NCBI RefSeq assembly: GCF_016429285.1
Contig: NZ_JAELUI010000007.1
Coordinates: forward strand, 1 to 63,255
From: Ralstonia sp. ASV6
GTDB taxonomy: Bacteria; Pseudomonadota; Gammaproteobacteria; Burkholderiales; Burkholderiaceae
DNA: 63,255 nt
Reading direction: 5' to 3'
Shown here in pieces: positions 5,444 to 23,420 of the stretch; the stretch's first letter is position 1, and every line of letters begins with the position of its first letter. The notes under the pieces were generated by a model. The model ran no database searches, had not been told where the DNA came from, and saw only the letters and a list, made by a program, of their open reading frames with translations. A program made the translations under genes and the position numbers.

Positions 5444-5529
5444 CGTGGAATGGGCCTCCGCGACCGGAATCGCGCACAAAGGCAGCCGCATTACCATGTC
5501 TCCATCCAAGACCCTTGCTGGAGAAGATC

Positions 5530-8863: not shown

Positions 8864-10396
8864 TCACACGTCGAACCGGACGCCCTGCGCCAGCGGCAGC
8901 GCGCCGCTGTAGTTGATGGTGTTGGTGGCGCGGCGCATGTAGCCCTTCCACGCGTCCGAGCCGGACTCACGGCCGCCGCCGGTTTCCTTCTCGCCGCCAA
9001 ACGCGCCGCCGATCTCGGCGCCCGAAGTGCCGATGTTGACGTTGGCAATGCCGCAGTCGCTGCCTGCCGACGACATGAAGCGCTCGGCATCGGTCAGGCT
9101 GCCCGTGAAGATGGCCGACGACAGGCCTTGCGGCACACCGTTCTGGATCGCGATGGCCTCGTCGGTGTCGCCGTCGTACACCACCACGTACAGGATGGGC
9201 GCGAAGGTCTCGCTTTGCATCACGTCGGTCGGCTTGGGCATTTTGACCAGCGCGGGGCGCACGTACCAGGCATCGGCACCGAGTTCTTCACGCACGCGTT
9301 CGCCGCCGAGCACTGTGCCACCTTCGGTGCGTGCCTGTGCCAGTGCCTGTTGCATGCCATCGAAAGCGGCCTGGTCGATCAGCGGGCCAACCAGCGTGCC
9401 GTCGGCCAGCGGGTCGCCAATGGCAATGCTCTGGTAGATCTTTTCCAGGCGTGCCAGCAGCGTGTCGGCCACCGAGCGGTGCACGATCAGGCGGCGCAAT
9501 GAGGTGCAGCGCTGGCCTGCCGTGCCCACGGCGGCAAAGGTGATCGCGCGGGCCGCCAGTTCCAGATCGGCCGAGGGCGTGACGATCATCGCGTTGTTGC
9601 CGCCCAACTCCAGAATCGAACGACCAAAGCGCTCCGCCACCTTCACGCCAACTTGACGGCCCATTCGGGTCGAGCCCGTGGCGCTGACCACCGGCACAAG
9701 GTGGCTGGCCACCAGCGCCTCGCCCACGTCGCGCCCGCCGATCAGCAACTGGCTCAGCCCTGCAGGAATGGCACCCGGCTTCTCCTGATTGAACGCATCC
9801 ACCACCTGTTGCATCAGGTGCTGGCACGCAATGGCGGTCAGCGGTGTCTTCTCTGACGGTTTCCAGACGATGGCATTGCCGCACACCAGGGCGAGCGCCG
9901 CGTTCCACGACCACACCGCCACCGGGAAGTTGAACGCCGAGATGATGCCCACCACGCCCATCGGGTGCCAGGTCTCCATCATGCGGTGCCCGGGCCGCTC
10001 GCTGGCGATGGTCAGGCCGTGCAGTTGCCGCGACAGGCCGACCGCGAAATCGCAGATGTCGATCATCTCCTGCACTTCGCCCAGGCCTTCGGAGGCGATC
10101 TTGCCTGCCTCCAGTGATACGAGTTCGCCCAGGGCTGCCTTGTGCGTGCGAAGCGCCTCGCCCAGGCGGCGCACCAGCTCACCGCGCACCGGAGCGGGTA
10201 CGGCACGCCACGTCAGATACGCCGTGTGTGCGCTCTGGATGGCGGTCTGCGCCTGCTCGGCGGTGTGCGACTTGACGCCGGCCAATACGGAACCGTCACG
10301 TGGGGCGCGGCTCGTCCAGTCCGTGCCTTCGTAGGCCTTCAAGTCCAGGCCCAGGGCGTTCAGTACTGTTTGCAATCGTGTGCGGGAATCTGCCAT
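8864..10396 (-). CDS. amaB: ALDH7-type aldehyde dehydrogenase (2-aminoadipate semialdehyde / piperideine-6-carboxylate dehydrogenase)
   Basis: A 510-residue NAD(P)-dependent aldehyde dehydrogenase. The family fold is marked by SAFNFPVAVWSWN, WKPSEKTPL, the catalytic Glu in LELGGNNAM and the catalytic Cys in GTAGQRCTSLRRL. The NAFNFP-like and GGE-x-ETGGGRESGSDAWKGYMRR motifs point to the ALDH7/AmaB/Pcd branch, which oxidises 2-aminoadipate 6-semialdehyde (in equilibrium with piperideine-6-carboxylate) to 2-aminoadipate. It is the last gene of the long importer/dehydrogenase operon, 57 bp after the solute-binding protein gene. The HglS, aminotransferase and D-2-HG-dehydrogenase genes at 18-22 kb carry on the same pathway. 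The substrate assignment is inference from family and context. Confidence 0.82.
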   Translation of the reverse strand: MADSRTRLQTVLNALGLDLKAYEGTDWTSRAPRDGSVLAGVKSHTAEQAQTAIQSAHTAYLTWRAVPAPVRGELVRRLGEALRTHKAALGELVSLEAGKIASEGLGEVQEMIDICDFAVGLSRQLHGLTIASERPGHRMMETWHPMGVVGIISAFNFPVAVWSWNAALALVCGNAIVWKPSEKTPLTAIACQHLMQQVVDAFNQEKPGAIPAGLSQLLIGGRDVGEALVASHLVPVVSATGSTRMGRQVGVKVAERFGRSILELGGNNAMIVTPSADLELAARAITFAAVGTAGQRCTSLRRLIVHRSVADTLLARLEKIYQSIAIGDPLADGTLVGPLIDQAAFDGMQQALAQARTEGGTVLGGERVREELGADAWYVRPALVKMPKPTDVMQSETFAPILYVVVYDGDTDEAIAIQNGVPQGLSSAIFTGSLTDAERFMSSAGSDCGIANVNIGTSGAEIGGAFGGEKETGGGRESGSDAWKGYMRRATNTINYSGALPLAQGVRFDV

Positions 10397-10453
10397 ACAT
10401 CCATCCTTACTGTTCTTTCGTGTTCAACTGATCAGTGTGCGCTTGCCGGGTGA

Positions 10454-11518
10454 TCAACGCTCGACCACGCGGTTCCAGCGCTTGCTCCACTCTGGGCGCT
10501 CAGCGTTGATGACGTCCCAGTCCAAGGCCACGGCGGTCTTGAGAATGCCGTTCATCTTGTTTTGCTCTTCCGCAGCCTTGCCCTTGAGCGGTGCCTTCGG
10601 ATTGACTGGGTTGTAGGAACCGTTTTCCATGGCGAGGGCCTGCGCCTCGGGGCTGATCAGGTAGTCCGCCAGCTTCTGTGCGAGATCGGCATCCGGGTTG
10701 TTGGCCAGCACGCACTGCGCAGTCAGCAGAACGACGGCGCCTTCCTTGGGCGCGACGAACTCCATCGGAATGCCCTTGGACTTCATCAGCTCAACCTGCG
10801 TGAGCGTGTAGGGGAACAGCGCCGCATCGCCTGCCTGCATCATCTCCACCACTTTCGACGAGTTGGGGATGTACTCGATCACGTTCGGGCCGATGGTGGT
10901 GGGCCATGCCTTGAATGCCGGGTCGACGTTCTTTTCCGTGCCGCCCTTGAGCCGGTTGAACATCAGGAAAGCGTCCAGCCCAAACGACGATGCCGGCATG
11001 GACTGCACGACCACCTTGCCCTTGTATTTCGGGTCAGCCAGGTCGCCCCACGAGGTGGGCGGGGTCCAGCCCTTGTCGGCAAAGATCTTGGTGCTGTAGG
11101 CGAGACCCGTCAGGCCCATCGATAGGCCCACTGCGTAATCGCCCTTGAGGTGGGCAATGGCGGGCACGGCTGACAGGTTGGCCGAGGGCTTGAGCTTCTC
11201 GCACAGCCCCATGCCGATCGCGCGGAACATGACGCCGTCATCCAGCGTCATCACGTGCATCTGCGCTTTGCCCTTGGTGGCCTGGGCCTTGGCGAGGATG
11301 TCGGTCGAGGTGCCGGGCACGACGACCACCTTGACGTTGTTGGCCTTCTCGAACGGCGGGAACACGAACTGCGTGTAGGTGCGCTCCATGTTGCCGCCAT
11401 TCATGCCGATGTACAGCGTCTTGGTTTCGGCATGGGCAGCGCCGGCGGCGAGCAGGGCAGCACCGGCCGCCGCGGCAATGATGGACGTGATTGACGTGTG
11501 TGCGTGTTTCACAAGCAT
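10454..11518 (-). CDS. ABC transporter periplasmic solute-binding protein (PotD/polyamine-like type)
   Basis: A 354-residue periplasmic binding protein. The start MLVKHAHTSITSIIAAAAGAALLAAGAAHAET is a signal peptide with cleavage around AHA-ET. The mature domain resembles PotD/spermidine-putrescine and opine-binding proteins (YIGMNGGNMERTYTQFVFPPFEKANNVKV). ATG 11518 is preceded by GGAG; the frame also opens at 11554, where ATG overlaps the previous stop. The protein should capture the substrate for the two permeases and the ATPase encoded upstream in the same operon. Ligand unknown; a small cationic or cyclic amino acid fits the catabolic neighbours. Confidence 0.85.
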   Translation of the reverse strand: MLVKHAHTSITSIIAAAAGAALLAAGAAHAETKTLYIGMNGGNMERTYTQFVFPPFEKANNVKVVVVPGTSTDILAKAQATKGKAQMHVMTLDDGVMFRAIGMGLCEKLKPSANLSAVPAIAHLKGDYAVGLSMGLTGLAYSTKIFADKGWTPPTSWGDLADPKYKGKVVVQSMPASSFGLDAFLMFNRLKGGTEKNVDPAFKAWPTTIGPNVIEYIPNSSKVVEMMQAGDAALFPYTLTQVELMKSKGIPMEFVAPKEGAVVLLTAQCVLANNPDADLAQKLADYLISPEAQALAMENGSYNPVNPKAPLKGKAAEEQNKMNGILKTAVALDWDVINAERPEWSKRWNRVVER

Positions 11519-11553
11519 GGTGGTCTCCAGGGGCATCAAGTGCTTCAACTTCA

Positions 11554-12687
11554 TCAAGCGGCGGGTGGCAGAAAACGGTGGATGGAAAAGGGCTCGATCG
11601 GCGTGGTGGTGTGGCCTTCGGCAATCAACTCGGCCATGACATCGCCCACACCGGGGCCGAGCTGGAAGCCGGCACCGGCAAAGCCAAAGGCATGGAACAG
11701 ACCAGGGCGACGGGCGCTGGCGCCGATCACGGGTTGGTCATCCGGTAGGTTGCCTTCCGTGCCACTCCAGGTGCGGATGATGTGCGCGTCCTTGAGCTGT
11801 GGCAGCAGCGCGGCCAGTTGCGGCAACTGGCGCAGGATCGCCACGTGCGATGACCGTGCGCGTTGATCGTCCAGCAGGTAGCCGCGCCCGCCACCGAACA
11901 CCACGTTGCCGCGCCGCACCTGGCGGCAGTAGATGCCACCGCCTTCCACGCCGAGGCTCCACGGTAGGAAGAAGGGCAAGGGCTCGGTCACGCCCATCGT
12001 GGGCGGGATGGTGAACATGGGTACCGGCTCGCCCCACTGCGCAGCAAACTGTGCTGCCCAGGCGCCGGCACAGTTGACCAGAACGGGGGCCTTGATCTCC
12101 AGGTCCTGATCATGCTGCCGCGCGTGTACGACGAAGCGTGTGCCGTTGTGCTCGACCGACAGCACCGGCGCATGCTCGCGCACATCGGCGCCGGCAGCCT
12201 GCGCGGCGCGGGCAAACGCGGGAGACAGCAGGCGCGGATTGGCCTGCCCGTCCTCCGGGCACAGCGAGCCGCCGACAATCTGATCGCCCCCCATCGGGAA
12301 GTATTTTTGCAGCGCGGCGCGGCCCTCGATCAACTGCAGGCCCAGGCCGAAACCCGCGCTGCGCTCAGCATAGCCGGCCAGCGATTCCATATCAGCGACG
12401 CAGCGGGCGATCTTGAAGTGCCCGCTGCGCTCGTACTCCGCCTCGGTGCCGATCAGCTCGGTGAGACGCCCCCAGATCTGGTGTGAGCGCTGCGCGAGCG
12501 GCAACTGCTCGACGGCGCGGCCCTGGCGCCGCACGCCGCCGAAGTTGACGCCGCTGGAGCGCGAGCCGCACAGGTCACGCTCCAGCAGTGCGACCGTCAG
12601 CCCACGCTGGCGCAGGAACAGGGCAGTGGCGCTGCCCATGATGCCGCCACCGATGATGGCTACGTCGCATGCCAGTTGCTCATGCAT
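11554..12687 (-). CDS. FAD-dependent amino acid dehydrogenase, DAO/HcnC/OoxB-type beta subunit
   Basis: A 377-residue flavoprotein of the D-amino-acid-oxidase (DAO) fold. The N-terminal dinucleotide-binding motif is DVAIIGGGIMGSATALFLRQRG, and the substrate domain ends with FAFAGAGFQLGP-like glycine-rich FAD contacts. In HcnABC, opine oxidase and hydroxyproline dehydrogenase systems this subunit oxidises the C-N bond and passes electrons to a large FAD/Fe-S partner. Here it overlaps the alpha-subunit gene by 8 bp, which suggests a fixed complex. With AmaB-type chemistry downstream, a secondary amino acid such as pipecolate is a plausible substrate, but this is inference. Confidence 0.85.
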   Translation of the reverse strand: MHEQLACDVAIIGGGIMGSATALFLRQRGLTVALLERDLCGSRSSGVNFGGVRRQGRAVEQLPLAQRSHQIWGRLTELIGTEAEYERSGHFKIARCVADMESLAGYAERSAGFGLGLQLIEGRAALQKYFPMGGDQIVGGSLCPEDGQANPRLLSPAFARAAQAAGADVREHAPVLSVEHNGTRFVVHARQHDQDLEIKAPVLVNCAGAWAAQFAAQWGEPVPMFTIPPTMGVTEPLPFFLPWSLGVEGGGIYCRQVRRGNVVFGGGRGYLLDDQRARSSHVAILRQLPQLAALLPQLKDAHIIRTWSGTEGNLPDDQPVIGASARRPGLFHAFGFAGAGFQLGPGVGDVMAELIAEGHTTTPIEPFSIHRFLPPAA

Positions 12688-14113
12688 GCTCGTCCTCCCC
12701 GGCGGTGACATCCAGCGGTAGCGGTTTGATTGGCGCCTGACCGCGCAGGCGGCCCACCTGTGCCAGCGGTACGGAGCGTACGTGCGCCAGAATCTCTGCT
12801 GCCGCAGCACCACACATACGGCCTTGGCAACGGCCCATGCCCACGCGGCATAGCGCCTTGAGGCGGTTCAGTTCGTGTGCTCCACACTCGGTGGCCGTCT
12901 GGCGCAGCGTGCCAGCGGTGACGTTCTCGCAGCGGCATACGACCAGATCGTCGCTGGCGTGCGCAGCCCACGCGTCTGGAAACGGAAACGCCGTTTCCAG
13001 CGCGTGGCGGAATCGCTCGATTTTCTGCAGGTGCGCACGCAGGCGGCGTACGCGGTCGGTATCGATCGAGATCTGTCGATCCTGCAGTAGCGCGAGCGCC
13101 GCCAGCTCGCCTGAGGACTCGGCGGCATCGGCGCCCATGATGCCGGCGCCATCGCCCGCCAGGTACACGCCCGTCACCGAGCTGCGCCGCATCGCATCGA
13201 TGCGGGGCACATGACAGCGGTGCAGCGTGGAGAACTCGAACGCGCAGCCCAGCAGATCAGCCAGTTGGGTTTCGGGGCGCAAGGCGTAACCCATGCCCAC
13301 GGCGGAACACGCGGTGCGCTGTTCGCGGCCGGCGCTGTCTTGCCACACCAAATGTTCAACCGCCGCATCGCCCTCGGCACGCAGCAACCGCACCCCGTGG
13401 CGCATGGGAATGCCGTGCAGCTTGAGCCAGGCGACCAGCGCCATGCCCTTGGCCATGACGGCAGGCTGGCCCAGCATGGCCGGCGCGGCCTTGTAGCGCG
13501 CGGCAGCCGGTGCCGTGTCGAGCACCGCCACCACGTTCGCCCCTGCCTTGGCGTATTGGCTGGCCACCAGGTACAGCAGGGGGCCGGTGCCGGCAAACAC
13601 CACGGCATCGCCAATCGCGCAGCCTTGATACTTGAGCGCGACCTGTGCGCCGCCCAGCGTGTAGACCCCCGGCAGCGTCCAACCCGGGATGGGCAGTACG
13701 CGATCGGTGGCGCCGGTGGCCACGATCACGTCGCGCCAGGCGAGGCTGCTGATGCCGCGCGTGGGTACGTGCAGCAGGTCGAGCAGATCGGGCTGTGCAT
13801 TCCACACCAAGGTCTGCGGGCGATAGTCGATCTGCGTGCGGAGTCGGTCGAAGGTTGCATGCACGGCCTGCGCCCGCGCGGCCTCGGTGCCGTACAGCTC
13901 CGCAGCAGAGCGGCCAAAGCCATCGGGTTGGCGACGGTAGATCTGGCCGCCCGCGCGTGGCGCTTCGTCCAGCACGATGGGTTTGAGGCCGTGCGCCAGC
14001 AAGGTTTCGGCCGCGCGCAAGCCTGCGGGCCCGGCACCGATGATGACGGGCGGCAAATCGTGCTGGCTCTGACGCTGCAACGTGGGCGCAACGGGCACAG
14101 TCATCGTCACCAT
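12680..14113 (-). CDS. FAD/NAD(P)-binding dehydrogenase alpha subunit with C-terminal [2Fe-2S] (HcnB/OoxA type)
   Basis: A 477-residue pyridine nucleotide-disulfide-like flavoprotein. It has the first FAD motif PPVIIGAGPAGLRAAE, a second Rossmann motif AVVFAGTGPLLYLVASQ and the ATG-like GVYLAGDGAGIMG. A C-terminal BFD-like segment carries the iron-sulphur cysteines (VVCRCEN ... CRVGMGRCQGRMC, about residues 395-430). This matches the large subunit of HcnABC/OoxA/hydroxyproline dehydrogenase-type complexes. The start overlaps the stop of the small [2Fe-2S] subunit gene (ATGGTGA). It should relay electrons from the DAO-type subunit towards the respiratory chain. Confidence 0.87.
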   Translation of the reverse strand: MVTMTVPVAPTLQRQSQHDLPPVIIGAGPAGLRAAETLLAHGLKPIVLDEAPRAGGQIYRRQPDGFGRSAAELYGTEAARAQAVHATFDRLRTQIDYRPQTLVWNAQPDLLDLLHVPTRGISSLAWRDVIVATGATDRVLPIPGWTLPGVYTLGGAQVALKYQGCAIGDAVVFAGTGPLLYLVASQYAKAGANVVAVLDTAPAAARYKAAPAMLGQPAVMAKGMALVAWLKLHGIPMRHGVRLLRAEGDAAVEHLVWQDSAGREQRTACSAVGMGYALRPETQLADLLGCAFEFSTLHRCHVPRIDAMRRSSVTGVYLAGDGAGIMGADAAESSGELAALALLQDRQISIDTDRVRRLRAHLQKIERFRHALETAFPFPDAWAAHASDDLVVCRCENVTAGTLRQTATECGAHELNRLKALCRVGMGRCQGRMCGAAAAEILAHVRSVPLAQVGRLRGQAPIKPLPLDVTAGEDEHA

Positions 14114-14439
14114 TGCACAGTTCCCTCGCTGGCGGCCAACTGCGTGCAGATATGCATGCCCGGCTCGATCATGGTCTGGCAGGCGCGCAGTGATCGGCCA
14201 TCGGCCAGGCGCACCCAGCAGTCCTGGCAGGCGCCCATCAGACAGAAGCCGGCACGCGGTTGCTGGCTGAATTCGTTGATGCGCAATTGGCGTGTTTGCG
14301 TGAGCACCGCCGTCAGTACGGTGTCGCCGGCCAGTGCTTCAGCGGGCTGACCATCCAGCACGAAAGCCACCGTGGGGCGGTTGCGTTCCTTGAGGCGCTG
14401 GAGTTGCGCAACTGCTATCGGTCTTGCAGGAGCATTCAT
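14107..14439 (-). CDS. Small (2Fe-2S)-binding subunit of the amino acid dehydrogenase (HcnA/SoxA-like)
   Basis: A 110-residue plant-type ferredoxin-like protein. The cluster cysteines are visible in AGFCLMGACQDCWVRL (C-x4-C-x2-C) plus the later Cys in LRACQTM. It corresponds to the small iron-sulphur subunit of HcnABC- and hydroxyproline-dehydrogenase-type complexes. It lies 13 bp downstream of a permease gene and overlaps the alpha subunit gene by 7 bp, so transporter and enzyme are made from one message. Confidence 0.87.
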   Translation of the reverse strand: MNAPARPIAVAQLQRLKERNRPTVAFVLDGQPAEALAGDTVLTAVLTQTRQLRINEFSQQPRAGFCLMGACQDCWVRLADGRSLRACQTMIEPGMHICTQLAASEGTVQW

Positions 14440-14452
14440 TGCGGTCTCTGTC

Positions 14453-15247
14453 TCAATGCTTGCCGATCAGGATGCGGTCCAGGCCGTAGACCCTATCCAG
14501 CAGCAACATCAGCGCCAGCGTGAGGAAGACGATCAGCGCCGAGACGGCGGCCATCATCGGGTCGAGCGATTCGGTGGCGTACATGTACATGCGGACCGGC
14601 AGCGTGACGGTGGCGGGCGACACCACAAAGATGGACATCGTCAGTTCATCAAAGCTGTTGATGAACGCCAGCAGCCACCCACCGGTGATGCCCGGCAGGA
14701 TCATCGGCAGCGTCATGCGGCGGAACACCGTAAAGCCGCTGGCGCCCAGTGAGTAGGCCGCATGTTCCACCGAGTGATCGAAGCCCACGAGCGCGGCCAT
14801 CACCAGCCGCATTGTGTAAGGCGTGACGATGAGTGCGTGCGCGAAGATCAGCCAGCCGAAGCTGCCTTGCCCGCCCACCAGCGAAAACATCCGCAGCAGC
14901 GCCACGCCCAGCACGAGGTGCGGAATGATCAGCGGCGACAAAAACAACCCCTGCAGAAACTGCAGCCCCGGCGCCCGCGAGCGGACGATGGCCATGGCCG
15001 CCGGCACCGCCAACGCAGTGGAGAGGGTGGCAGCCGCCACACCCAGCCACAGGCTGTTCCAGAACGACTGCACAAAATCTGGGTGATGCAGCACCTGGTC
15101 AAACCAGCGCAGCGAGACATGGCTGGTCGGCAGCGTGAGCGTTTCTTCCGGGGTGAAGGCGACGATGCACACGATCACCAGCGGTGCCAGCATGAAGGTG
15201 ATGACGAGCGCGTTGAAAGCGAGCGCGAGGGGTCCGTTCTTTTGCAT
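14453..15247 (-). CDS. ABC transporter permease (PotC-like)
   Basis: A 264-residue inner-membrane permease with about six hydrophobic segments. The first is ALAFNALVITFMLAPLVIVCIVAF. The binding-protein-dependent transport EAA-type loop reads EHAAYSLGASGFTVFRRMTLPMILPGI, which docks onto the ATPase. It pairs with the permease gene 10 bp upstream to form the PotB/PotC-like channel of a spermidine/putrescine-type importer. Confidence 0.9.
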   Translation of the reverse strand: MQKNGPLALAFNALVITFMLAPLVIVCIVAFTPEETLTLPTSHVSLRWFDQVLHHPDFVQSFWNSLWLGVAAATLSTALAVPAAMAIVRSRAPGLQFLQGLFLSPLIIPHLVLGVALLRMFSLVGGQGSFGWLIFAHALIVTPYTMRLVMAALVGFDHSVEHAAYSLGASGFTVFRRMTLPMILPGITGGWLLAFINSFDELTMSIFVVSPATVTLPVRMYMYATESLDPMMAAVSALIVFLTLALMLLLDRVYGLDRILIGKH

Positions 15248-15257
15248 GTGCGCCCCC

Positions 15258-16115
15258 TCAGCCCAGCGTCTTCTTGTAGCGGCTTTCGATCATGCGGTTC
15301 CACCCCAGCATGATGATCAGATTGGCTGCCAGCAGAATCAGCGCAATGGCCGCACCCAGCGGCCAGTTGAGCTCGTTCAGGTACTCGTCATAGATGAGCG
15401 TGGCCACCATCTTCACGCGGCGCCCACCCAGCAGCCCCGGAATGGCGAACGAACTGGCCGACAGACCAAACACGATCAGGCTGCCCGAGAGAATGCCCGG
15501 CATGACCTGAGGCAGCACCACACGGCGCAAGGTGGTGAAGTGCGATGCGGACAGCGAGAGCGCGGCGTTCTCCACCCACGGGTCGAGCTTCTGCAGCGAC
15601 GTCCACACGGGGATCACCATGAAGGGCAACATCACGTGCACCAGCGCAATCACGATGGCTGTCTCGTTGTACAGCAGCTTGACCGGGCCGATACCGATAG
15701 CCTTGAGCAAGCTGTTGATCAGTCCTTCAGGGCCGAGCAGCATGCTCCAGCCGAACGCACGAACTACTACCGAAATCAGCAGCGGCGCCAGGATGACGAG
15801 CAGAAAGATCGAGCGCCAGGGTTTGCCCATCCGGCTCAGGATGTAGGCCTCTGGCGCGCCGACCAGAATGCACACCACCGTCACCAGTGCGGAGATGCGC
15901 AGCGTGCGCCAGAAGATTTCGTAGTAGTACGGGTCCTGCACCACGTGCAGGTAATGCGCAAACGTGAAGGTGCCCGCGATAGGCCCCTTATCGGCATCAA
16001 AGGCGTTGAAGGACAGCACTGCGCTCAACGCCAGCGGTACCAACAGCATCACGGTGAACAGCGCCAGCGCAGGGCCCGTCATGCTCCATGGCACCCAGTT
16101 GAATCGACGGGTCAT
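15258..16115 (-). CDS. ABC transporter permease (PotB-like)
   Basis: A 285-residue permease. ATG 16115 overlaps the ATPase stop (ATGA), which fixes the start at MTRRFNWVPW just before TM1; the longer open frame is spurious. The EAA-type loop is ENAALSLSASHFTTLRRVVLPQVMPGI. It forms the heterodimeric channel with the PotC-like partner encoded immediately downstream. Confidence 0.9.
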   Translation of the reverse strand: MTRRFNWVPWSMTGPALALFTVMLLVPLALSAVLSFNAFDADKGPIAGTFTFAHYLHVVQDPYYYEIFWRTLRISALVTVVCILVGAPEAYILSRMGKPWRSIFLLVILAPLLISVVVRAFGWSMLLGPEGLINSLLKAIGIGPVKLLYNETAIVIALVHVMLPFMVIPVWTSLQKLDPWVENAALSLSASHFTTLRRVVLPQVMPGILSGSLIVFGLSASSFAIPGLLGGRRVKMVATLIYDEYLNELNWPLGAAIALILLAANLIIMLGWNRMIESRYKKTLG

Positions 16116-17182
16116 ACTGCGACCTCCGCGCCAATCACGCGAACATAGCGGTCCTGCCAATCCACGCCCACGGTCTGGCCGACATCGCACGGCGCATCGC
16201 CATCGTTGACGGCCGACACCAGCAACGCACCCAGCGGCGTGTCGACGGTGTACATCCACTGATTGCCGAGGAAGAAGCGTTCGGTCACGCGGCCTTCGCA
16301 TCGGCCGGTGCCGTCGGCGGTACAGGTCATCTTTTCGGGACGCAGCGCCAGCACGACCGAGTTGCCCGAGTTGCCGGTGAGGGTGCCCGGCGGCAGCGCC
16401 ACCTGTACCGCCCCCACGGTGGCGTGCATCTCACCATTGTTGCCCGATACCACCGAGGCATGCAGCAGATTGGCCTTGCCGACAAAGGTGGAGATGAACG
16501 CATTGCGCGGATGCTCATATACCGTGAGCGGTGTATCCACTTGCGTGATGCGTCCGGCCTCCATGACGACCACGCGGTCGCTGATCGACATGGCCTCGGC
16601 CTGATCGTGCGTGACCATGATGGTGGTCGTACCCACCTTGCGCTGGATTTCGCGCAGCTCGAACTGCATCTCTTCACGCAGCTTGGCGTCCAGGTTGGAC
16701 AACGGCTCATCCAGCAGCAGTACCGGCGGCTTGATGACCAGCGCCCGTGCCAGGGCAACACGCTGGCGCTGGCCGCCGGAGAGCTCGCGCGGGTAGCGGT
16801 CGACGTGCTTGTCCAGATGCACCAGCGCCAGCGTCTGCATGGCGCGCTCGCGGCGTTCGGCCGGCGGGCACTTGCGCATCTCCAGGCCGAATTCCACGTT
16901 CTCGCGCACCGTCATGTGCGGGAACAGCGCGTAGGTCTGGAACACGATCCCCAGGCCACGTGCGTTGGCCTTGGCACGGGTGATGTTCTTGCCGTCCAGC
17001 TCGATCGTGCCGGCAGACACCTCTGCAAAGCCCGCAATCATCTGCAGGGTCGTGGTCTTGCCGCAGCCGGAAGGGCCGAGCAGCGAGACGAACTCGCCCT
17101 TGTGCACCTCCAGGTTGAAGTCTTGAACCACACGGAGGTCGCCGTACTGCTTTGAGACATGGTTGAGGCGCAGAAAACTCAT
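16112..17182 (-). CDS. ABC transporter ATP-binding protein (PotA-like)
   Basis: A 356-residue ATPase, first gene of the long operon. Walker A is GPSGCGKTTT (about 37-46), the signature is LSGGQRQRVALARAL, Walker B is PVLLLDEPLSNLDAKLR, and the switch His is in MVTHDQAEAM. The last ~120 residues form a TOBE-type regulatory domain, as in PotA/PotG. It powers uptake through the two permeases downstream. The promoter region is shared with the divergent IclR gene and carries repeated GGAATA sites. Confidence 0.93.
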   Translation of the reverse strand: MSFLRLNHVSKQYGDLRVVQDFNLEVHKGEFVSLLGPSGCGKTTTLQMIAGFAEVSAGTIELDGKNITRAKANARGLGIVFQTYALFPHMTVRENVEFGLEMRKCPPAERRERAMQTLALVHLDKHVDRYPRELSGGQRQRVALARALVIKPPVLLLDEPLSNLDAKLREEMQFELREIQRKVGTTTIMVTHDQAEAMSISDRVVVMEAGRITQVDTPLTVYEHPRNAFISTFVGKANLLHASVVSGNNGEMHATVGAVQVALPPGTLTGNSGNSVVLALRPEKMTCTADGTGRCEGRVTERFFLGNQWMYTVDTPLGALLVSAVNDGDAPCDVGQTVGVDWQDRYVRVIGAEVAV

Positions 17183-17310
17183 CGGTCATCCTTTGCGACG
17201 GGGCCTTAGTTCTGGGTCCTAAGCGCCGCACTTCTCTGTCTGAAGAATATGGATATGCTATTGCAATGCACATGCCAGGGCGTTGAATTTTCCTAGGTGT
17301 ATACGCTGTA

Positions 17311-17349
17311 AACGGAATATTTCTCTGATTTATTCCATTTAACGGAATA
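17311..17349. promoter_or_regulatory. Candidate IclR operator between divergent IclR gene and transporter operon
   Basis: AACGGAATA occurs twice (17311-17319 and 17341-17349), exactly 30 bp or about three helix turns apart. Between them TATTCC (17331-17336) forms an inverted pair with the first GGAATA. IclR-type regulators commonly bind such palindromes in divergent regions. Confidence 0.6.
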
Positions 17350-17384
17350 CAATCGATCCACCAAATTCGCTCCATTCCAGCTTC

Positions 17385-18227
17385 ATGGCTTCTGATTTCG
17401 AAGACGACGCGCATCAGCGCAGCGCCATGCACCGCACCTTCCAGATCCTGCGCACCATGGCGGAGCAGCAGCACCAAGGTGTGCGTGTCACCTACCTGGC
17501 CAAGACGCTGGGCATGACCCCTGCCACGACGCACCGTCTGCTGCAGGGCCTGACGCAGGAAGGCATGGTCGAGCAGGATCAACAGAACAAGCTGTACCGG
17601 CTGAGCCTGGATCTGTTCTGCCTGGCGGCCCAGGCAGGCACGGTGAACGATCTGCGCACAGTGGCCAGGCCGGCCCTGCTGCGCCTGAATGCCAGCCTGG
17701 GCGACACGGTGCTGCTGCTGGTGCGTTCGGGTTTCGACGCGGTGTGCCTTGACCGCGTAGAAGGCCAGTACCCGATCCGCACCTTCACGGGCGATGTGGG
17801 CGGCCGCGTGGAACTGGGCGTGGGCCAGGGCGCGATGGTGATCCTCGCGCACCTGCCGGAAGCCGAGCAGGAAGAGGTGCTGCGCTACAACCTGCCGCGC
17901 ATCCGGCACTACAGCGTGTACGACGAGGTCTACCTGCGCTCTGAAGTCAGAAAGGCCCGCGAACGCGGCTACAGCGCCAAGACCGACGGGTTGCTCGAGG
18001 GCATGGCCGGTATTGCGGTGCCAGTGTTCGATCGCAACGGCAACGTGGTTGCCGCGCTGTCGGTCGGCACGCTGGTCAACCGCCTGAGCGCCGAACGTCT
18101 GCCTATCGTGGTTGACATGCTGCTGCGCGAAGCCAACCGGCTGACCACGCAGATCAACCCGTTTGATCCGACGCTGCGTCGGCCCATGCATTCCATGGCG
18201 GTGAGCGACGCGTATCGTGCGATCTGA
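17385..18227 (+). CDS. IclR-family transcriptional regulator
   Basis: A 280-residue regulator. The N-terminal winged HTH is HRTFQILRTMAEQQHQGVRVTYLAKTLGMTPATTHRLLQGLTQEGMV. The C-terminal IclR effector domain includes GLLEGMAGIAVPVFDRNGNVVAALSVGTL. It is divergent from the PotA-like gene and convergent with the D-2-hydroxyglutarate-type dehydrogenase gene, so it sits between the two halves of the proposed catabolic pathway and is the best candidate regulator of the transporter/dehydrogenase operon. Confidence 0.93.
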   Translation: MASDFEDDAHQRSAMHRTFQILRTMAEQQHQGVRVTYLAKTLGMTPATTHRLLQGLTQEGMVEQDQQNKLYRLSLDLFCLAAQAGTVNDLRTVARPALLRLNASLGDTVLLLVRSGFDAVCLDRVEGQYPIRTFTGDVGGRVELGVGQGAMVILAHLPEAEQEEVLRYNLPRIRHYSVYDEVYLRSEVRKARERGYSAKTDGLLEGMAGIAVPVFDRNGNVVAALSVGTLVNRLSAERLPIVVDMLLREANRLTTQINPFDPTLRRPMHSMAVSDAYRAI

Positions 18228-18245
18228 GGGGCAATCTGATTCGGC

Positions 18246-19676
18246 TCACTGAGTGGGTTCTGCGGCAAGCACCCGGCCCGGATTCAGCAAGCACTGCGGG
18301 TCCAGCGCCTGCTTGATGGTGCGCATCAGTTGCAGGGCCACAGGCGTCTTGTAGTGCGGAAGCTTGTCGCGCTTGAGCGCACCAATGCCGTGCTCTGCCG
18401 AGATCGAGCCGCCAAACCGGTGAACGGCCTGATAGACCGCATCGCTGATCGCCGCCTCATGCGCCGTGATGAACGCGGCCGCATCTGCACCAGCCGGCGC
18501 CTGCATGTTGTAGTGCAGGTTCCCATCGCCCAGGTGCCCGAAGTTGATCAGCCGCACGCCCGGCGCCAGTGTCTGGAGCTGCGCATCGGTCTGCGCCACG
18601 AACTCGGGAATGCGTGAGATCGGCACAGACACATCGTGCTTGATGTTGAGGCCCTCGGCCGCCTGCGCCAGCGTGATGCTCTCGCGGATGTGCCACAGAT
18701 CATGCGCCTGGCGGATGTTCTCGGCGATGATGGCGTCGGTCACGATGTCGTCTTCCATCGCTGTTTGCAGCAGGTGTTCAAACCGCGCTCTGGCGTGTGC
18801 TTCGGATTCGCTGTCGGACGCTTCCAGCAAGACGCACCACATCGTCTCGCGCCACATCGGCACGCGTAGATGGGGGTAGTGCGCGTCAACGAGCTTGAGC
18901 GCTCCCTGGTTCATCACTTCAAAGCCCGTGAGTGCGGAAGACAGATGCCGGTGCGACAAGGCCAGCAACGCCGTGGCCGCCTCCAGCGAGGGCACGGCTG
19001 CCCACGCTGTCAGCTGCGCTGCGGGTTGCGGATACAGCCGCAGCGTGGCCGCCGTGATGATGCCCAGCGTGCCTTCGCTGCCGATGAACAGGTTGCGCAG
19101 GTCATAGCCGGTGTTGTCCTTGCGCAGGCCCTGCAGGCCTTCCCAGACTTGCCCGTCAGCCAGCACCACTTCCAGCCCCAGGCATAGCTCGCGCGCGTTG
19201 CCGTAGCGCGCCACCTGTGTGCCGCCCGCGTTGGTCGCCAGGTTGCCGCCGATAGTGCAACTGCCCTCTGCACCCAGGCTCAGCGGAAACAGCAACCCCG
19301 CCTCGTGCACCGCCTCCTGCAGAGACTGGAGCACGCAGCCCGCTTCCACCGTGACCGTCATGTTGGCGAGGTCGATGGCGCGTACGGCCTGCATGCGGCG
19401 CAGGCTCAGGATGATCTGCTCGCCGTCGGCATTGGGCACCGAGCCTTCGACGAGGCCGGTGTTGCCACCCTGCGGCACGATCGAGACGCCGGCCTGGGCG
19501 CATGCACGCATCACCTTGGCCACTTCTGCGGTACAGGCGGGTCGTACTACGCAGTACGCCTTGCCACGCACACGCTGGCGCCAATCGGTTTCGAATTCGA
19601 TGCACGCATCGCCGGTCAGAACATGGGCGGCCCCCACGATGTCGCGCAAGGCAGGGATCAGGTTGTCGGGTGTCAT
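18246..19676 (-). CDS. FAD-binding oxidoreductase, D-2-hydroxyglutarate dehydrogenase / GlcD-like
   Basis: A 476-residue VAO-type flavoprotein. The FAD-binding segment VPQGGNTGLVEGSVP and GCTIGGN-like 'GSCTIGGNLATNAGGTQVARYGNARE' are conserved, as are DNTGYDLRNLFIGSEGTLGIIT and the C-terminal HLGDGNLHYN and EHGIGALKR motifs. The family oxidises D-2-hydroxy acids (glycolate, D-lactate, D-2-hydroxyglutarate). Placement as the third gene after HglS, which makes D-2-hydroxyglutarate, and an aminotransferase strongly favours the D-2-hydroxyglutarate role, giving 2-oxoglutarate. It lies 36 bp after the aminotransferase gene. Confidence 0.85.
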   Translation of the reverse strand: MTPDNLIPALRDIVGAAHVLTGDACIEFETDWRQRVRGKAYCVVRPACTAEVAKVMRACAQAGVSIVPQGGNTGLVEGSVPNADGEQIILSLRRMQAVRAIDLANMTVTVEAGCVLQSLQEAVHEAGLLFPLSLGAEGSCTIGGNLATNAGGTQVARYGNARELCLGLEVVLADGQVWEGLQGLRKDNTGYDLRNLFIGSEGTLGIITAATLRLYPQPAAQLTAWAAVPSLEAATALLALSHRHLSSALTGFEVMNQGALKLVDAHYPHLRVPMWRETMWCVLLEASDSESEAHARARFEHLLQTAMEDDIVTDAIIAENIRQAHDLWHIRESITLAQAAEGLNIKHDVSVPISRIPEFVAQTDAQLQTLAPGVRLINFGHLGDGNLHYNMQAPAGADAAAFITAHEAAISDAVYQAVHRFGGSISAEHGIGALKRDKLPHYKTPVALQLMRTIKQALDPQCLLNPGRVLAAEPTQ

Positions 19677-19712
19677 GGCAACGGCGATGAGGGTTGTCAG
19701 TCGAGGGGGCTG

Positions 19713-20954
19713 TCAGCGCAGGAGTTCAGTCACGGCCGCAGCGAGCCGCTGCACGGCTTGCTCGATCTGCGGCACCTCGGGCGCGGCGAAGGACAGGCGC
19801 ATGGTGTGGTGCGGTGCGCTGTCGGGGTAGAACGCCTTGCCGGGTACATACAGCACTTGCTGGGTGACAGCGGCATCAAACAGCGCCTGTGGGGCGATCG
19901 ACTGTGCAAACGTGGCCCAGACGAACATGCCGCCCGCTGGCGGCGCGCAATGCACGCAGCCGTTCAAGCTGGAAGCGATGCCTTGCACCAGGGCCTGCAT
20001 GCGCCGCTGATATTCGATGCGGGCACGCTGTACCGTGGCCGGGTAGCGTCCGCTTTCCAGGTAGCGGGCGGCCACCATCTGCGCCAGTGGCGATGTACAT
20101 AGGTCCACCGTCTGCTTGGCGACGGCGCAACGGCGCAGCAGGCTGCTGTCGGCCAGCATCCAGCCTACCCGTAGTGCCGGGGCAACGGTTTTGGACAGGC
20201 TGGAGAGATACACCACCGGGTTCACGCCGCCATCTTCCAATCGGTCGCCTATGGTGCGCAGCGTGGGCGGCATCGGTGGCGTGCTGCCATCCGGCGCGTC
20301 AGCGGTGTCGAATTGCAGCTCGCCGTACGGATCGTCTTCTACCACCCAGAAGCCATGGGTGCAGGCCAGTTGCACCAGGGCCTCACGGCGCTCGGCGGCT
20401 AGCAGCGTGCCCCGAGGGTTGGAGAAGTTCGGTACGGTGTAGAGCAGCTTCGGACGCTGCTCCGCGGGCAGCTGGCGTAGCAACGCGGCCAGTGCGTCGA
20501 CTTGCAGGCCGTGCTCGTCCATCGGCACGGGCACGATGTGCGCTTGCGCCAGGCGCAAGGCTTGCAGCGTGGCTGGATAGGCAGGCACCTCCACCAGAAC
20601 CGTATCCCCTGGTTCGATCAGCACGCGTACCAGCAGGTCGAATGCTTGCTGTGAGCCTGTGGTCACCATCATCTGTTCAGCGTCGGACTGAATGCCGCGT
20701 TCGCGCATCAGGGCAGCCAGCGCGGTGCGGAGGATAGGCAACCCTTCCGTTGCGCCGTACTGCAGCGTTTGCGCATCGCCCGTCATGGCCCGGGCGGCGG
20801 CGTGTGCCAGCCCTTCGGCATCGAACAGGCTGGGCGACGGATAGCCGCCGGCCAGCGAGATCATCCCCGGCTGACTGAGGTAGGGGAACAGCTCGCGGAT
20901 GGGCGAGCCCGCAGGTTGCGCAAACGGGGCGGCAAAGGCCGGCATGTCGATCAT
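19713..20954 (-). CDS. PLP-dependent aminotransferase (2-aminoadipate aminotransferase-like)
   Basis: A 413-residue fold-type I aminotransferase of the LysN/2-aminoadipate and MocR-like subgroup. Visible features are LQYGATEGLPILRTALA, TTGSQQAFDLL, VPNFSNPRGT, the PLP-contacting DDPYGEL, and the Schiff-base Lys in LSSLSKTVAPALRVGWM. It should convert 2-aminoadipate to 2-oxoadipate in this setting. The ATG overlaps the HglS stop (ATGA), indicating translational coupling. The specific substrate is inferred from context; other branched or aromatic substrates are possible for the family. Confidence 0.85.
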   Translation of the reverse strand: MIDMPAFAAPFAQPAGSPIRELFPYLSQPGMISLAGGYPSPSLFDAEGLAHAAARAMTGDAQTLQYGATEGLPILRTALAALMRERGIQSDAEQMMVTTGSQQAFDLLVRVLIEPGDTVLVEVPAYPATLQALRLAQAHIVPVPMDEHGLQVDALAALLRQLPAEQRPKLLYTVPNFSNPRGTLLAAERREALVQLACTHGFWVVEDDPYGELQFDTADAPDGSTPPMPPTLRTIGDRLEDGGVNPVVYLSSLSKTVAPALRVGWMLADSSLLRRCAVAKQTVDLCTSPLAQMVAARYLESGRYPATVQRARIEYQRRMQALVQGIASSLNGCVHCAPPAGGMFVWATFAQSIAPQALFDAAVTQQVLYVPGKAFYPDSAPHHTMRLSFAAPEVPQIEQAVQRLAAAVTELLR

Positions 20955-22354
20955 GCTGCGGCATCCACGACGGGCATGCCGCGCAGCGCGGCGCGCAACT
21001 GGTCGACCGAGCGTTGCTGTGCCGCTTCGTATAACGCGATTTCGTCATGCACGTGTGCACCCAGCGCGGCTTCAAACGCCTGCTGTGCGGCATGGGCCTG
21101 ATACTGCTTCTGCTCTTCGCCGCCCAGGTTGGACTGGAAGATGCCCGCCGCGCTCACCGGCAGGAAGTCTTCATACGTGATGGGATCGGCTTGCGCCCAG
21201 CCTTTGGCCAGCAGCACATCCAACGACGCTTCGGCGTCGATCTGCGCTGCCTTGCCCGATGCCGTCAGGCTGTAGCGGTAGTAGGCCAGGCCTTGGGCGC
21301 GCAGTGCCTCATGGGTGTCCGGAAAGGCGCGGAACGCCAGTGCCAGTCGACTCTCGTAATCCGGCGCGGCGCTGCCGGCATTGCCCATGTCACGCACCTC
21401 GGCCAGCAGCTGGTCGTACAGCGCACGACCCTTGCGCGTCAGGGCGACGCCGCGCTGCTCGATCTCGCCAAAGCGCGCCGTATGCGCACCGGTATCATCA
21501 GTAAAGCGCACGGTTTCCTGCAACGCCTTGAAGCTGGTCTGGCGCAGCAGGATGGGGCAATCGCGTCGCGGCGGACCCTCCACCACATCCTTGGCGTCCA
21601 TGCCACGCGCCGGCATGGCGGCCTGCGCGGCGTCGATGTCGAGCGTACGTGGCGTCAGGTGGTTGATGTGCGGCCCCCGGAAGCAAACCACGTCGGCCAC
21701 CAGGCGGTGAGCCGCCTGCAGGGCGCGGTAGGTTTCGGCGTCGACGGTTGCGGTGCTGTGCCAGCGGAAGGTCTCCAGCGCCTCGCGCACGAAGGCATCG
21801 GCATCTGCGTCGCAGAGGCCTCCATCGGTCTCGCACTGCGCGATCAATTCCAGCACGCGCGGCGTGAAGATCTGGCGGCGTGCCAGGATGGCTGCCGCCT
21901 TCTCGCGCAAGGCCGGATCGGCAATCAGCTCAAGCCGCAGCAACGACGTGAACACGCGGAACGGATTGGCCGCCAGTGCAGCATCGGCCACCGGGCGAAA
22001 CGCCGTGGAGTGCACAGGAACACCCGCCACCGACAAGTCGTAGTAGCCCACTGGCTCCATGCCCATGACGGCAAACAGCCGTCGCAGCGTCGCCAGCTCG
22101 GCCGCTGTGCCAACGCGGATGGCGCCGTGGCGCTCCACATCCAGTCGCTCCAGCTCACCCGCATGCGTCATCTGCGCGCGCAACGTGGGTTGGGCGTCCA
22201 GCGTGCGCGTGTTGATGTCGGCTACCAAGTCGATCAGGGCGCCGTATTGCGGCACTTCCTGACGGTACATGCTGGACATGGCGCGCGAAAAGCGCGTGCG
22301 GATGTCGTCTGCGCAGACGAAGGAGTCGACCGTGGGTTGATGCGATTTGCTCAT
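20951..22354 (-). CDS. hglS: 2-oxoadipate dioxygenase/decarboxylase (HglS, DUF1338/YdcJ family)
   Basis: A 467-residue DUF1338 protein. The characterised member in Pseudomonas putida is an Fe(II) enzyme that turns 2-oxoadipate into D-2-hydroxyglutarate. By alignment from memory, HGAIR (His76, Arg80), His232 in the INHLTPR motif and a Glu near 299 (FGEIEQRG) fit the reported metal and substrate residues. The conserved VPVHSTAFRP is also present. It is first in a three-gene operon with an aminotransferase and a D-2-hydroxyglutarate-type dehydrogenase, the enzymes acting before and after it. It is divergent from a LysR gene across a 145-bp region with a palindrome. Confidence 0.87.
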   Translation of the reverse strand: MSKSHQPTVDSFVCADDIRTRFSRAMSSMYRQEVPQYGALIDLVADINTRTLDAQPTLRAQMTHAGELERLDVERHGAIRVGTAAELATLRRLFAVMGMEPVGYYDLSVAGVPVHSTAFRPVADAALAANPFRVFTSLLRLELIADPALREKAAAILARRQIFTPRVLELIAQCETDGGLCDADADAFVREALETFRWHSTATVDAETYRALQAAHRLVADVVCFRGPHINHLTPRTLDIDAAQAAMPARGMDAKDVVEGPPRRDCPILLRQTSFKALQETVRFTDDTGAHTARFGEIEQRGVALTRKGRALYDQLLAEVRDMGNAGSAAPDYESRLALAFRAFPDTHEALRAQGLAYYRYSLTASGKAAQIDAEASLDVLLAKGWAQADPITYEDFLPVSAAGIFQSNLGGEEQKQYQAHAAQQAFEAALGAHVHDEIALYEAAQQRSVDQLRAALRGMPVVDAAA

Positions 22355-22433: not shown

Positions 22434-22452
22434 TCATTCCAGAATAGAATGA
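22434..22452. promoter_or_regulatory. Palindrome in the hglS / LysR divergent promoter region
   Basis: TCATTC (22434-22439) and GAATGA (22447-22452) are a perfect inverted repeat with a 7-base spacer, 48 bp before the LysR start. It fits a LysR-type binding site (T-N11-A style dyad). Confidence 0.55.
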
Positions 22453-22499: not shown

Positions 22500-23420
22500 A
22501 TGTTCCCGCCACGCCGCTTTCTGCCGCCCATGTCCCTGCTTTGCGCATTTGAGGCGGCTGCGCGCCATCAGAGCTTCACGGCTGCTGCCGCTGAACTGCA
22601 TCTGACGCAAAGCGCGGTCAGTCGGCAGATTCGTGCGCTGGAAGATCGCCTGGGGGCCGAGCTGTTCGTGCGTGAGCGCCAGACCGTGCGTCTGAGCCCG
22701 GCAGGCCAGGCGTATGCGGAGGAAATTCGCGGTGCGTTGATGCGCATTTCCAGCGCCACGGTTGGCTTTCGTGCGAATCCGCAAGGGGGCAGCCTGAACC
22801 TGGCCATCCTCCCCACCTTCGGTACCCGTTGGCTGGCACCGCGCCTGCCGCAGTTTTTCGATCAGCATCCCGGCATCACGATCAACCTGACGACGCGGCT
22901 ATCGCAGTTCGACTTCCAATTGGAGACAGTGGATGCGGCCATTCATTTCGGCCCGCAGCACTGGCCGGGGGCCGAACTCGCCTTGTTGATGAGCGAGACC
23001 GTCGTGCCCGCATGCAGCCCGGCGTTTTTGGCCCGGTACGCCTTTGCGCAGCCGCGCGATCTGCTGGGTGCGCCGTTATTGCACCTGGCCTCGCGCCCCG
23101 ATGCCTGGTCGCGCTGGCTGGCCACCCATCAGGTAGACGGGGGCGATACGCAAGGCATGGTGTTTGACCAGTTTGCGACCGCCGCCCAGGCCGCTGTTGC
23201 CGGCCTGGGGGTGGCATTGCTGCCGCGCTTTCTGATCTCCCACGAGTTGCGGCAGGGCGATCTTGTTCTGGCCTTGCCCCATGTGCCGGAGATGGAAAGT
23301 GCCGAGCGCTACTATCTGGCCTGGCCTACTGGCCGGACCGACTATCCGCCTCTGCAGGCGTTGCGAACATGGCTCGTGCAAGCGGCGCAGGACTTCACGC
23401 AGGCACAGGCTGCCGCGTGA
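22500..23420 (+). CDS. LysR-family regulator (GcvA-like), divergent from hglS
   Basis: A 306-residue LTTR with the GcvA-like N-terminus (RFLPPMSLLCAFEAAARHQSFTAAAAELHLTQSAVSRQIRALEDRLG) and a periplasmic-binding-like effector domain. It is transcribed away from the hglS operon, the usual arrangement for an LTTR that controls its neighbour. The effector is probably a pathway intermediate such as 2-aminoadipate or 2-oxoadipate, but this is inference. Confidence 0.92.
   Translation: MFPPRRFLPPMSLLCAFEAAARHQSFTAAAAELHLTQSAVSRQIRALEDRLGAELFVRERQTVRLSPAGQAYAEEIRGALMRISSATVGFRANPQGGSLNLAILPTFGTRWLAPRLPQFFDQHPGITINLTTRLSQFDFQLETVDAAIHFGPQHWPGAELALLMSETVVPACSPAFLARYAFAQPRDLLGAPLLHLASRPDAWSRWLATHQVDGGDTQGMVFDQFATAAQAAVAGLGVALLPRFLISHELRQGDLVLALPHVPEMESAERYYLAWPTGRTDYPPLQALRTWLVQAAQDFTQAQAAA

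Follow-up and report, generated by a model that had tools for sequence, protein, structure and literature searches.

What does the three-subunit flavoprotein encoded beside amaB in Ralstonia sp. ASV6 oxidise, and does its product enter the 2-aminoadipate/HglS route? We addressed this in a 63,255-nucleotide stretch of DNA (the window: positions 1 to 63,255 of contig NZ_JAELUI010000007.1, assembly GCF_016429285.1), which contains an island with genes for an IclR-family regulator, an ATP-binding cassette (ABC) importer with its solute-binding protein (SBP), a dehydrogenase of gamma, alpha and beta subunits (the trio), AmaB, an aminotransferase, HglS and an FAD-linked dehydrogenase. We call the IclR/ABC importer/trio/SBP set the module. 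We put at about even the chance that the island imports a lysine-derived amino acid, most likely pipecolate, and degrades it to 2-oxoglutarate via the trio, AmaB and HglS. The later steps are argued from curated families and retained active-site residues, and the link between trio and AmaB from a neighbourhood that recurs in different gene orders. The features, with the evidence for each, are as follows.

8864..10396, minus strand: amaB, L-piperidine-6-carboxylate/aminoadipate semialdehyde dehydrogenase (ALDH7); NF050084, PDB antiquitin/ALDH7 matches.
10454..11518, minus strand: periplasmic SBP of the importer; SBP_bac_8/6.
11554..12687, minus strand: beta subunit, DAO-type FAD catalytic subunit; PF01266, 1y56_B.
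12680..14113, minus strand: alpha subunit, FAD plus BFD-type [2Fe-2S]; PF07992 (Pyr_redox_2), PF04324 (Fer2_BFD), PF17806 (SO_alpha_A3).
14107..14439, minus strand: small [2Fe-2S] (gamma) subunit; PF13510 (Fer2_4).
14453..15247, minus strand: importer permease 2; open reading frame and synteny with the module.
15258..16115, minus strand: importer permease 1; PF00528.
16112..17182, minus strand: importer ATPase, Phn/Pot-type; PhnT2 at 372 bits, below the cut-off of 458.
17331..17349, no strand: 19-bp palindrome TATTCC-N7-GGAATA, predicted IclR operator; intergenic conservation.
17385..18227, plus strand: IclR-family regulator; PF01614 and PF09339.
18246..19676, minus strand: FAD-linked D-2-hydroxyglutarate-type dehydrogenase; PF01565 and PF02913, 6lpn.
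19713..20954, minus strand: 2-aminoadipate-type aminotransferase (LysN/AADAT-like); 2egy, 4gdy.
20951..22354, minus strand: hglS, predicted 2-oxoadipate dioxygenase/decarboxylase; NF049974, four key residues.
22435..22451, no strand: palindrome CATTC-N7-GAATG upstream of hglS; conserved in close loci.
22500..23420, plus strand: LysR-family gene, divergent from hglS and the likely regulator of its operon; PF00126 and PF03466.

All 12 genes named in a preliminary description of this DNA are intact open reading frames where it had placed them. Leftward from the IclR gene run the ABC ATPase, two permeases, the 110-residue [2Fe-2S] subunit, the 477-residue FAD/[2Fe-2S] subunit, the DAO-type subunit, the SBP and ALDH7; the opposite side carries the D-2-hydroxyglutarate dehydrogenase (D2HGDH)-like enzyme, the aminotransferase and HglS. 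Intergenic spacing is operon-like on both sides (-8 to 57 nt from amaB to the ATPase, -4 to 36 nt from the D2HGDH gene to hglS).

The enzymes after the trio were assigned from family cut-offs and structural matches. AmaB meets the curated L-piperidine-6-carboxylate dehydrogenase family NF050084 (812 bits, cut-off 730) and HglS meets NF049974 (741 bits, cut-off 550). His76, Arg80, His232 and Glu297 of HglS correspond to His70, Arg74, His226 and Glu294 of Pseudomonas putida HglS, the His-His-Glu (HHE) metal triad and 2-oxoadipate-binding arginine described for HglS (PMC7286885, in excerpt); from the family and the retained residues we predict that the enzyme acts on 2-oxoadipate. The aminotransferase matches the 2-aminoadipate transaminase of Thermus thermophilus (2egy, 226 bits) and human AADAT (4gdy, 157 bits), both outscored by 1x0m, 3aov and 1wst, which carry other or broad names. 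The last enzyme falls below the YdiJ family NF049975 (109 bits, cut-off 1350) and resembles the human D2HGDH type (6lpn, 334 bits), with structures of other, broad or unassigned function scoring higher. Gene content, cut-offs and enzyme resemblances therefore confirm the earlier observation of two operons, and the chain it proposed, from AmaB through 2-aminoadipate, 2-oxoadipate and D-2-hydroxyglutarate to 2-oxoglutarate, is supported.

The trio is less easily named. Its beta subunit is not AmaA, scoring 57 bits on the L-pipecolate oxidase family NF050086 (cut-off 600). Its closest solved relative is 1y56_B, which we take to be the Pyrococcus horikoshii L-proline dehydrogenase complex, yet this best structural match reaches only 122 bits. 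Public records of the trio homologues examined call them only FAD-dependent or FAD-binding oxidoreductases. The gamma subunit carries the cysteine motif Cys-X4-Cys-X2-Cys-X12-Cys at residue 66 (CLMGACQDCWVRLADGRSLRAC), within the pattern Cys-X4-Cys-X2-Cys-X11-12-Cys. The alpha subunit has GAGPAG at 26, CRC at 393 and CQGRMC at 429, and beta has GGGIMG at 14 and Arg-X-Trp at 306; ADP motifs are thus found in alpha and beta, and Arg-X-Trp in beta. Such motifs mark D-hydroxyproline, opine and archaeal L-proline dehydrogenases, and alpha departs from the printed form Cys-X-Cys-X15-20-Cys-X4-Cys, matching only when a spacer of 25-40 is allowed; PF04324 matches (PMC4575208, in excerpt). D-hydroxyproline dehydrogenase, HcnABC and archaeal L-proline dehydrogenase have the same subunit architecture as the trio, and type 2 opine dehydrogenase (OpnDH; BjOdhAB2C, BtOdhC-A-B), close to the archaeal proline enzyme, shares with the trio the three subunits, their gamma-alpha-beta order, the gamma cysteine motif, the ADP motifs and Arg-X-Trp (same excerpt). 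The heterotrimeric class is further defined by its FAD, FMN and Fe-S content and by alpha4beta4gamma4 assembly. This likeness to type 2 OpnDH is drawn from its description, not from the BjOdhB2 or BtOdhB sequence, and the island's trio differs in having amaB and hglS as neighbours.

Those neighbours are conserved among close relatives. The full HglS-aminotransferase-D2HGDH/IclR/ABC-trio-SBP-amaB arrangement is found in eight of the nine closest loci (L001-L009; beta 93-94% identical; eight Ralstonia and, at L007, Burkholderiaceae bacterium 26), and the ninth, L008, retains hglS without the aminotransferase and D2HGDH genes at the locus. Acidovorax Leaf160 (L010) keeps hglS and the aminotransferase, with a GhrA-like gene in place of D2HGDH. 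All five Comamonas loci hold IclR, importer, trio and SBP at 63-87% identity, with amaB and hglS not nearby; the Acidovorax and the five Comamonas genomes all encode both (6/6, or 8/8 adding our genome, G000, and that of L008). The module also stands free on plasmids of Azospirillum, Ensifer, Sinorhizobium, Burkholderia and Paraburkholderia. It is self-contained and patchy: at E up to 1e-80, beta was found in 11 of 399 genomes sampled from the order and in 20 of 398 sampled across the phylum.

The link to amaB recurs. Beyond Ralstonia and Acidovorax, where amaB lies downstream of the SBP gene, an amaB 69-73% identical adjoins the module in three settings: three g3 genomes with a divergent HGLS gene, aminotransferase, amaB, ABC, trio and SBP in that order; one g5 genome with amaB upstream of the module and an aminotransferase and a thiamine-diphosphate (ThDP) enzyme downstream; and G551, with amaB downstream of the module (beta 58%). 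The amaB copies, one per additional setting (n=3), score 819-826 bits. Two divergent HGLS genes were scanned and match PF07063 at 79-82 bits without reaching NF049974; that of L073 hits 3iuz (474 bits), which is among the DUF1338 structures listed with the metal motif (PMC7286885, in excerpt). Loci L054, L073, L079 and L041 (L041 and L073 being a single replicon) hold this divergent-HGLS form followed by aminotransferase-amaB-ABC-trio-SBP, a second, separately built version of the island. Homologous loci thus do associate with hglS, in a minority of module loci. On a beta tree built by a quick method from 70 rows, after exclusion of 17 near-duplicates, the amaB label requires four changes, three or more of which are imposed by branches whose SH-aLRT is at least 95; amaB is nearby in 11 of the 47 module rows.

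Gene content pointed the same way. Among 299 Burkholderiaceae genomes we found beta (E up to 1e-80) in 140, AmaB in 220 and an HGLS protein in 167. AmaB was present in 140 of 140 beta-positive genomes versus 80 of 159 others, and HGLS in 113 of 140 versus 54 of 159, counts that ignore kinship and genome size and whose 140 include importer-less sister-group trios; HGLS was present in 90 of the 102 genomes with higher-scoring betas. Beta and amaB lie within about 15 kb in at least 18 of the 140 (positions compared by eye), namely 13 of the window's genus including our own genome, plus G551, G126, G444, G642 and G643. Within that genus, 14 of 16 genomes hold beta and HGLS; the other two, G423 and G537, lack both yet retain amaB. 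A beta-negative g3 genome, G595, has an HGLS-aminotransferase-amaB locus with the flanks of the g3 genomes (by eye) and no ABC-trio-SBP. Because the linkage recurs in different gene orders and AmaB accompanies beta in every beta-positive Burkholderiaceae genome, the trio product likely feeds AmaB, a tie that the preliminary description had proposed and for which genomic linkage is the evidence. Synteny across relatives and the repeated trio-amaB linkage rule out chance clustering.

The importer gives fewer clues. The top NCBIfam match of the SBP is PhnS (75 bits, cut-off 395), with weak similarity to polyamine, iron, agropine and mannopine binding proteins. Among the NCBIfam families shown, neither the polyamine cut-offs (PotA 363 versus 482, TIGR01187 347 versus 356, PotD 32 versus 582 bits) nor the phosphonate ones were reached, and the earlier label "PotABCD-like" proves a loose one.

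Two conserved palindromes bear on regulation. TATTCC-N7-GGAATA sits between the IclR gene and the ATPase gene, and of 57 IclR-ATPase intergenic regions surveyed, with near-duplicate genomes counted, 46 carry a palindrome of this type. Ensifer and Sinorhizobium are among the 11 that lack it; in L076, another of these 11 or one of those two, a strict site falls just beyond the region, 23 nt from where the IclR frame is predicted to start. The strict form occurs once in the 63-kb window, with 0.003 expected per 20 kb (mononucleotide shuffles), and is probably the IclR operator, a prediction from sequence. CATTC-N7-GAATG is kept upstream of hglS in the window, L001-L009 and Acidovorax L010; because it lies between hglS and the divergent LysR gene, its owner may be either IclR or LysR. 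Since hglS has a divergent LysR gene to itself and its palindrome is spaced differently, the single regulated locus first envisaged is not supported. Similar LysR-type genes (by eye) stand divergent from divergent-HGLS genes in L108 and L111.

For the substrate and product of the trio, the electron acceptor, the importer substrate and the regulation, we infer the following scheme. The ABC importer would take up an amino acid derived from lysine, with pipecolate the likeliest candidate. The gamma-alpha-beta complex, as a respiratory dehydrogenase of the D-hydroxyproline/opine/L-proline dehydrogenase kind, would oxidise the ring carbon beside the nitrogen to give piperideine-6-carboxylate, opening to aminoadipate semialdehyde, and its electrons would pass to the respiratory chain by way of FAD, two [2Fe-2S] centres and probably FMN. 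AmaB would then form 2-aminoadipate, the aminotransferase 2-oxoadipate, HglS D-2-hydroxyglutarate and the FAD enzyme 2-oxoglutarate. IclR would control the importer/trio/amaB operon through the palindrome at 17331-17349, and the LysR neighbour the hglS-aminotransferase-D2HGDH operon. Pipecolate is our best single guess for the trio substrate, and we would expect it to prove right about half the time.

Several observations weigh against this scheme, besides the limits of the co-occurrence counts. The amaB gene is not nearby in 36 of the 47 module rows of the tree (a few contigs being short), and 27 of the 140 beta-positive genomes lack HGLS. The five Comamonas genomes carry amaB and hglS elsewhere without either strict palindrome; no strict site occurs in stretches of ~4.4 kb around these distant genes, and a single IclR regulon spanning them was rejected on that ground. 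In G423, of the window's own genus, all that is left of the island is amaB and part of the SBP gene (L118); therefore amaB also serves something else. Octopine was the substrate assayed for type 2 OpnDH, which of the described kinds comes closest in subunit order, and this enzyme showed no activity with L-proline (PMC4575208, in excerpt). An AlphaFold model of beta (6-row alignment) had a predicted local confidence (pLDDT) of 42 and was set aside. We also surveyed amaB neighbours in 20 hand-picked regions, mainly beta-negative or with amaB far from beta. Of the 19 that hold amaB, none has the trio beside it, five have divergent HGLS and aminotransferase genes without an oxidase of the kinds probed, and six lack any probe match.

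Other flavoproteins complicate the picture further. Because a DAO of the single-subunit kind comes after amaB in 5 of the 19 regions and adjoins it in Comamonas odontotermitis, flavin amine dehydrogenases are recurrent amaB neighbours. The family of this DAO is present in 111 of 284 genomes examined and was found in none of the 16 of the window's genus. C. odontotermitis carries a lone trio as well as this DAO, and G126, G444 and G642 (g3, with amaB-linked trios) also hold a DAO away from amaB. Our own genome encodes an AmaA-like single-subunit oxidase with its own transporter (contig C320; L016, and L130 8019-9482). It scores 349 bits, below the AmaA cut-off, a strict one, since a probable Phaeobacter pipecolate oxidase reaches only 425 of the 600 bits; our enzyme is 36% identical to the latter. 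Curing Phaeobacter of the plasmid that bears this probable pipecolate oxidase gene led to pipecolate accumulation (PMC5653290, in excerpt), and WP_014881847 is probably the PGA1_262p02210 of that paper, judging by plasmid position. By eye, the neighbours of the AmaA-like gene include an ABC transporter of the polar amino acid type and an IclR-like gene, and this locus may give the genome a second pipecolate system. The trio therefore may not be the only pipecolate oxidase, and the proposal that it replaces AmaA is weakened; it may act on another isomer or derivative than the AmaA-like enzyme. Candidate AmaA genes in the trio's slot near amaB in L115, L119, L120, L123 and L124 were dropped at 175-194 bits against 600.

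Could the module instead be a free-standing cassette for an unrelated amine or amino acid, with the adjacency of amaB and hglS in Ralstonia a by-product of gene clustering? The module rows without amaB and the lack of a shared palindrome at the distant Comamonas genes fit this view, whereas amaB beside the module in several lineages and differing orders, and the HGLS-aminotransferase-amaB-ABC-trio-SBP run with a different HGLS type, speak against it; we consider it unlikely.

N6-substituted lysines are also possible substrates. The trio would then oxidise saccharopine, carboxymethyl- or carboxyethyl-lysine or another opine-like conjugate imported by the ABC system, attacking the lysine epsilon carbon to give aminoadipate semialdehyde for AmaB and a second amino acid. 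Opine dehydrogenases yield a free amino acid and a 2-oxo acid, products that would not need AmaB. The weak similarity of the SBP to agropine and mannopine binding proteins favours such conjugates, and the GhrA-like 2-hydroxyacid dehydrogenase that recurs by the module could handle a released 2-oxo acid; a proline-racemase family gene near the DAO-amaB-aminotransferase cluster of L111, and of L111 only, fits a cyclic imino acid. The gamma-alpha-beta order is that of the B. thailandensis type 2 OpnDH cluster, and the type 2 BjOpnDH oxidises octopine and is inhibited by L-lysine, though its Km for octopine is 19.5 mM (PMC4575208, in excerpt). We found no paper on carboxymethyl-lysine catabolism in the open-licence PMC literature. 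We judge this reading slightly less probable than a free-standing cassette.

Attack on the alpha carbon of D-pipecolate, in the manner of D-hydroxyproline dehydrogenase, gives piperideine-2-carboxylate. It is improbable that D-pipecolate, some other stereoisomer or a substituted form is the substrate of the trio, with a product reaching AmaB, leaving L-pipecolate to the AmaA-like C320 enzyme: piperideine-2-carboxylate is not an AmaB substrate without a reductase, for which no search was made, even though trio and single-subunit oxidases coexist in our genome, C. odontotermitis and three g3 genomes and the studied trio enzyme D-hydroxyproline dehydrogenase uses the D-isomer (PMC4575208, in excerpt).

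The reading of the island as a route from pipecolate to 2-oxoglutarate can be set beside known systems. The D-lysine/pipecolate branch of P. putida comprises a racemase, AmaC/AmaD, DpkA, AmaA, AmaB, an aminotransferase, HglS and a D-2-hydroxyglutarate dehydrogenase. The island shares AmaB, HglS and the surrounding steps with it (PMC7286885, PMC12930750, in excerpt) and differs in having a three-subunit Fe-S flavoprotein instead of AmaA as the candidate for the first oxidation, its own ABC importer, all genes in one island, and a D2HGDH-like enzyme rather than YdiJ. Clusters of amaB, DAO and aminotransferase in other Burkholderiaceae (L111, L112, L125) resemble the island in their AmaB and aminotransferase neighbours, with divergent HGLS in L111 and L112, and differ in placing a single-subunit flavoprotein rather than the trio by amaB. 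We found no description of the trio/importer/amaB/hglS combination in the open-licence PMC literature.

Other neighbours were recorded alongside. ThDP enzymes lie near amaB in three of the 19 surveyed regions and were seen beside it in L072 (12837-14546, NF006052), L109, L110, L126 and L019 (3-1157, by eye); such an enzyme is possibly an alternative 2-oxoadipate decarboxylase. GhrA-like D-2-hydroxyacid dehydrogenase genes recur beside the module in varied positions (L010, L011, L048, L050, L070, L071). A sister group of trios lacks this importer (L044, L045, L046, L063, L065, L069); several of its loci have GhrA-like genes, some HAD-type hydrolases or extra FAD oxidoreductases, and L044 and L046 a TonB-dependent receptor. 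In L085 a proline-racemase family gene (12763-13737) has a sister-group trio and a DadA-like gene close by; the cluster is probably of the hydroxyproline type. The island is bracketed in the window by two genes of the nitronate monooxygenase family (5515-6600 and 24112-25116), and both also flank it in L008 (by eye).

Collectively, these results place the island within the known aminoadipate/HglS route, as a new variant of it and not as a pathway of a new kind. They give a recurrent three-subunit flavoprotein a testable identity linked to that route, and suggest that the reaction preceding AmaB is carried out by different flavoproteins. If pipecolate is the substrate, the module would add both an importer and a first enzyme for pipecolate, neither of which the public records examined name. 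A wider proposal sees in the module a heterotrimeric respiratory system for pipecolate dehydrogenation, not described before and equipped with its own importer, across Azospirillum, rhizobia, Burkholderiaceae, Comamonas and Acidovorax; it is tentative, and we lean against it. Under this wider proposal the flavin "opine dehydrogenase type 2" would in part be a system for using pipecolate or lysine derivatives. Plants use pipecolate in defence signalling, and soil and root bacteria could then consume a compound on which that signalling draws.

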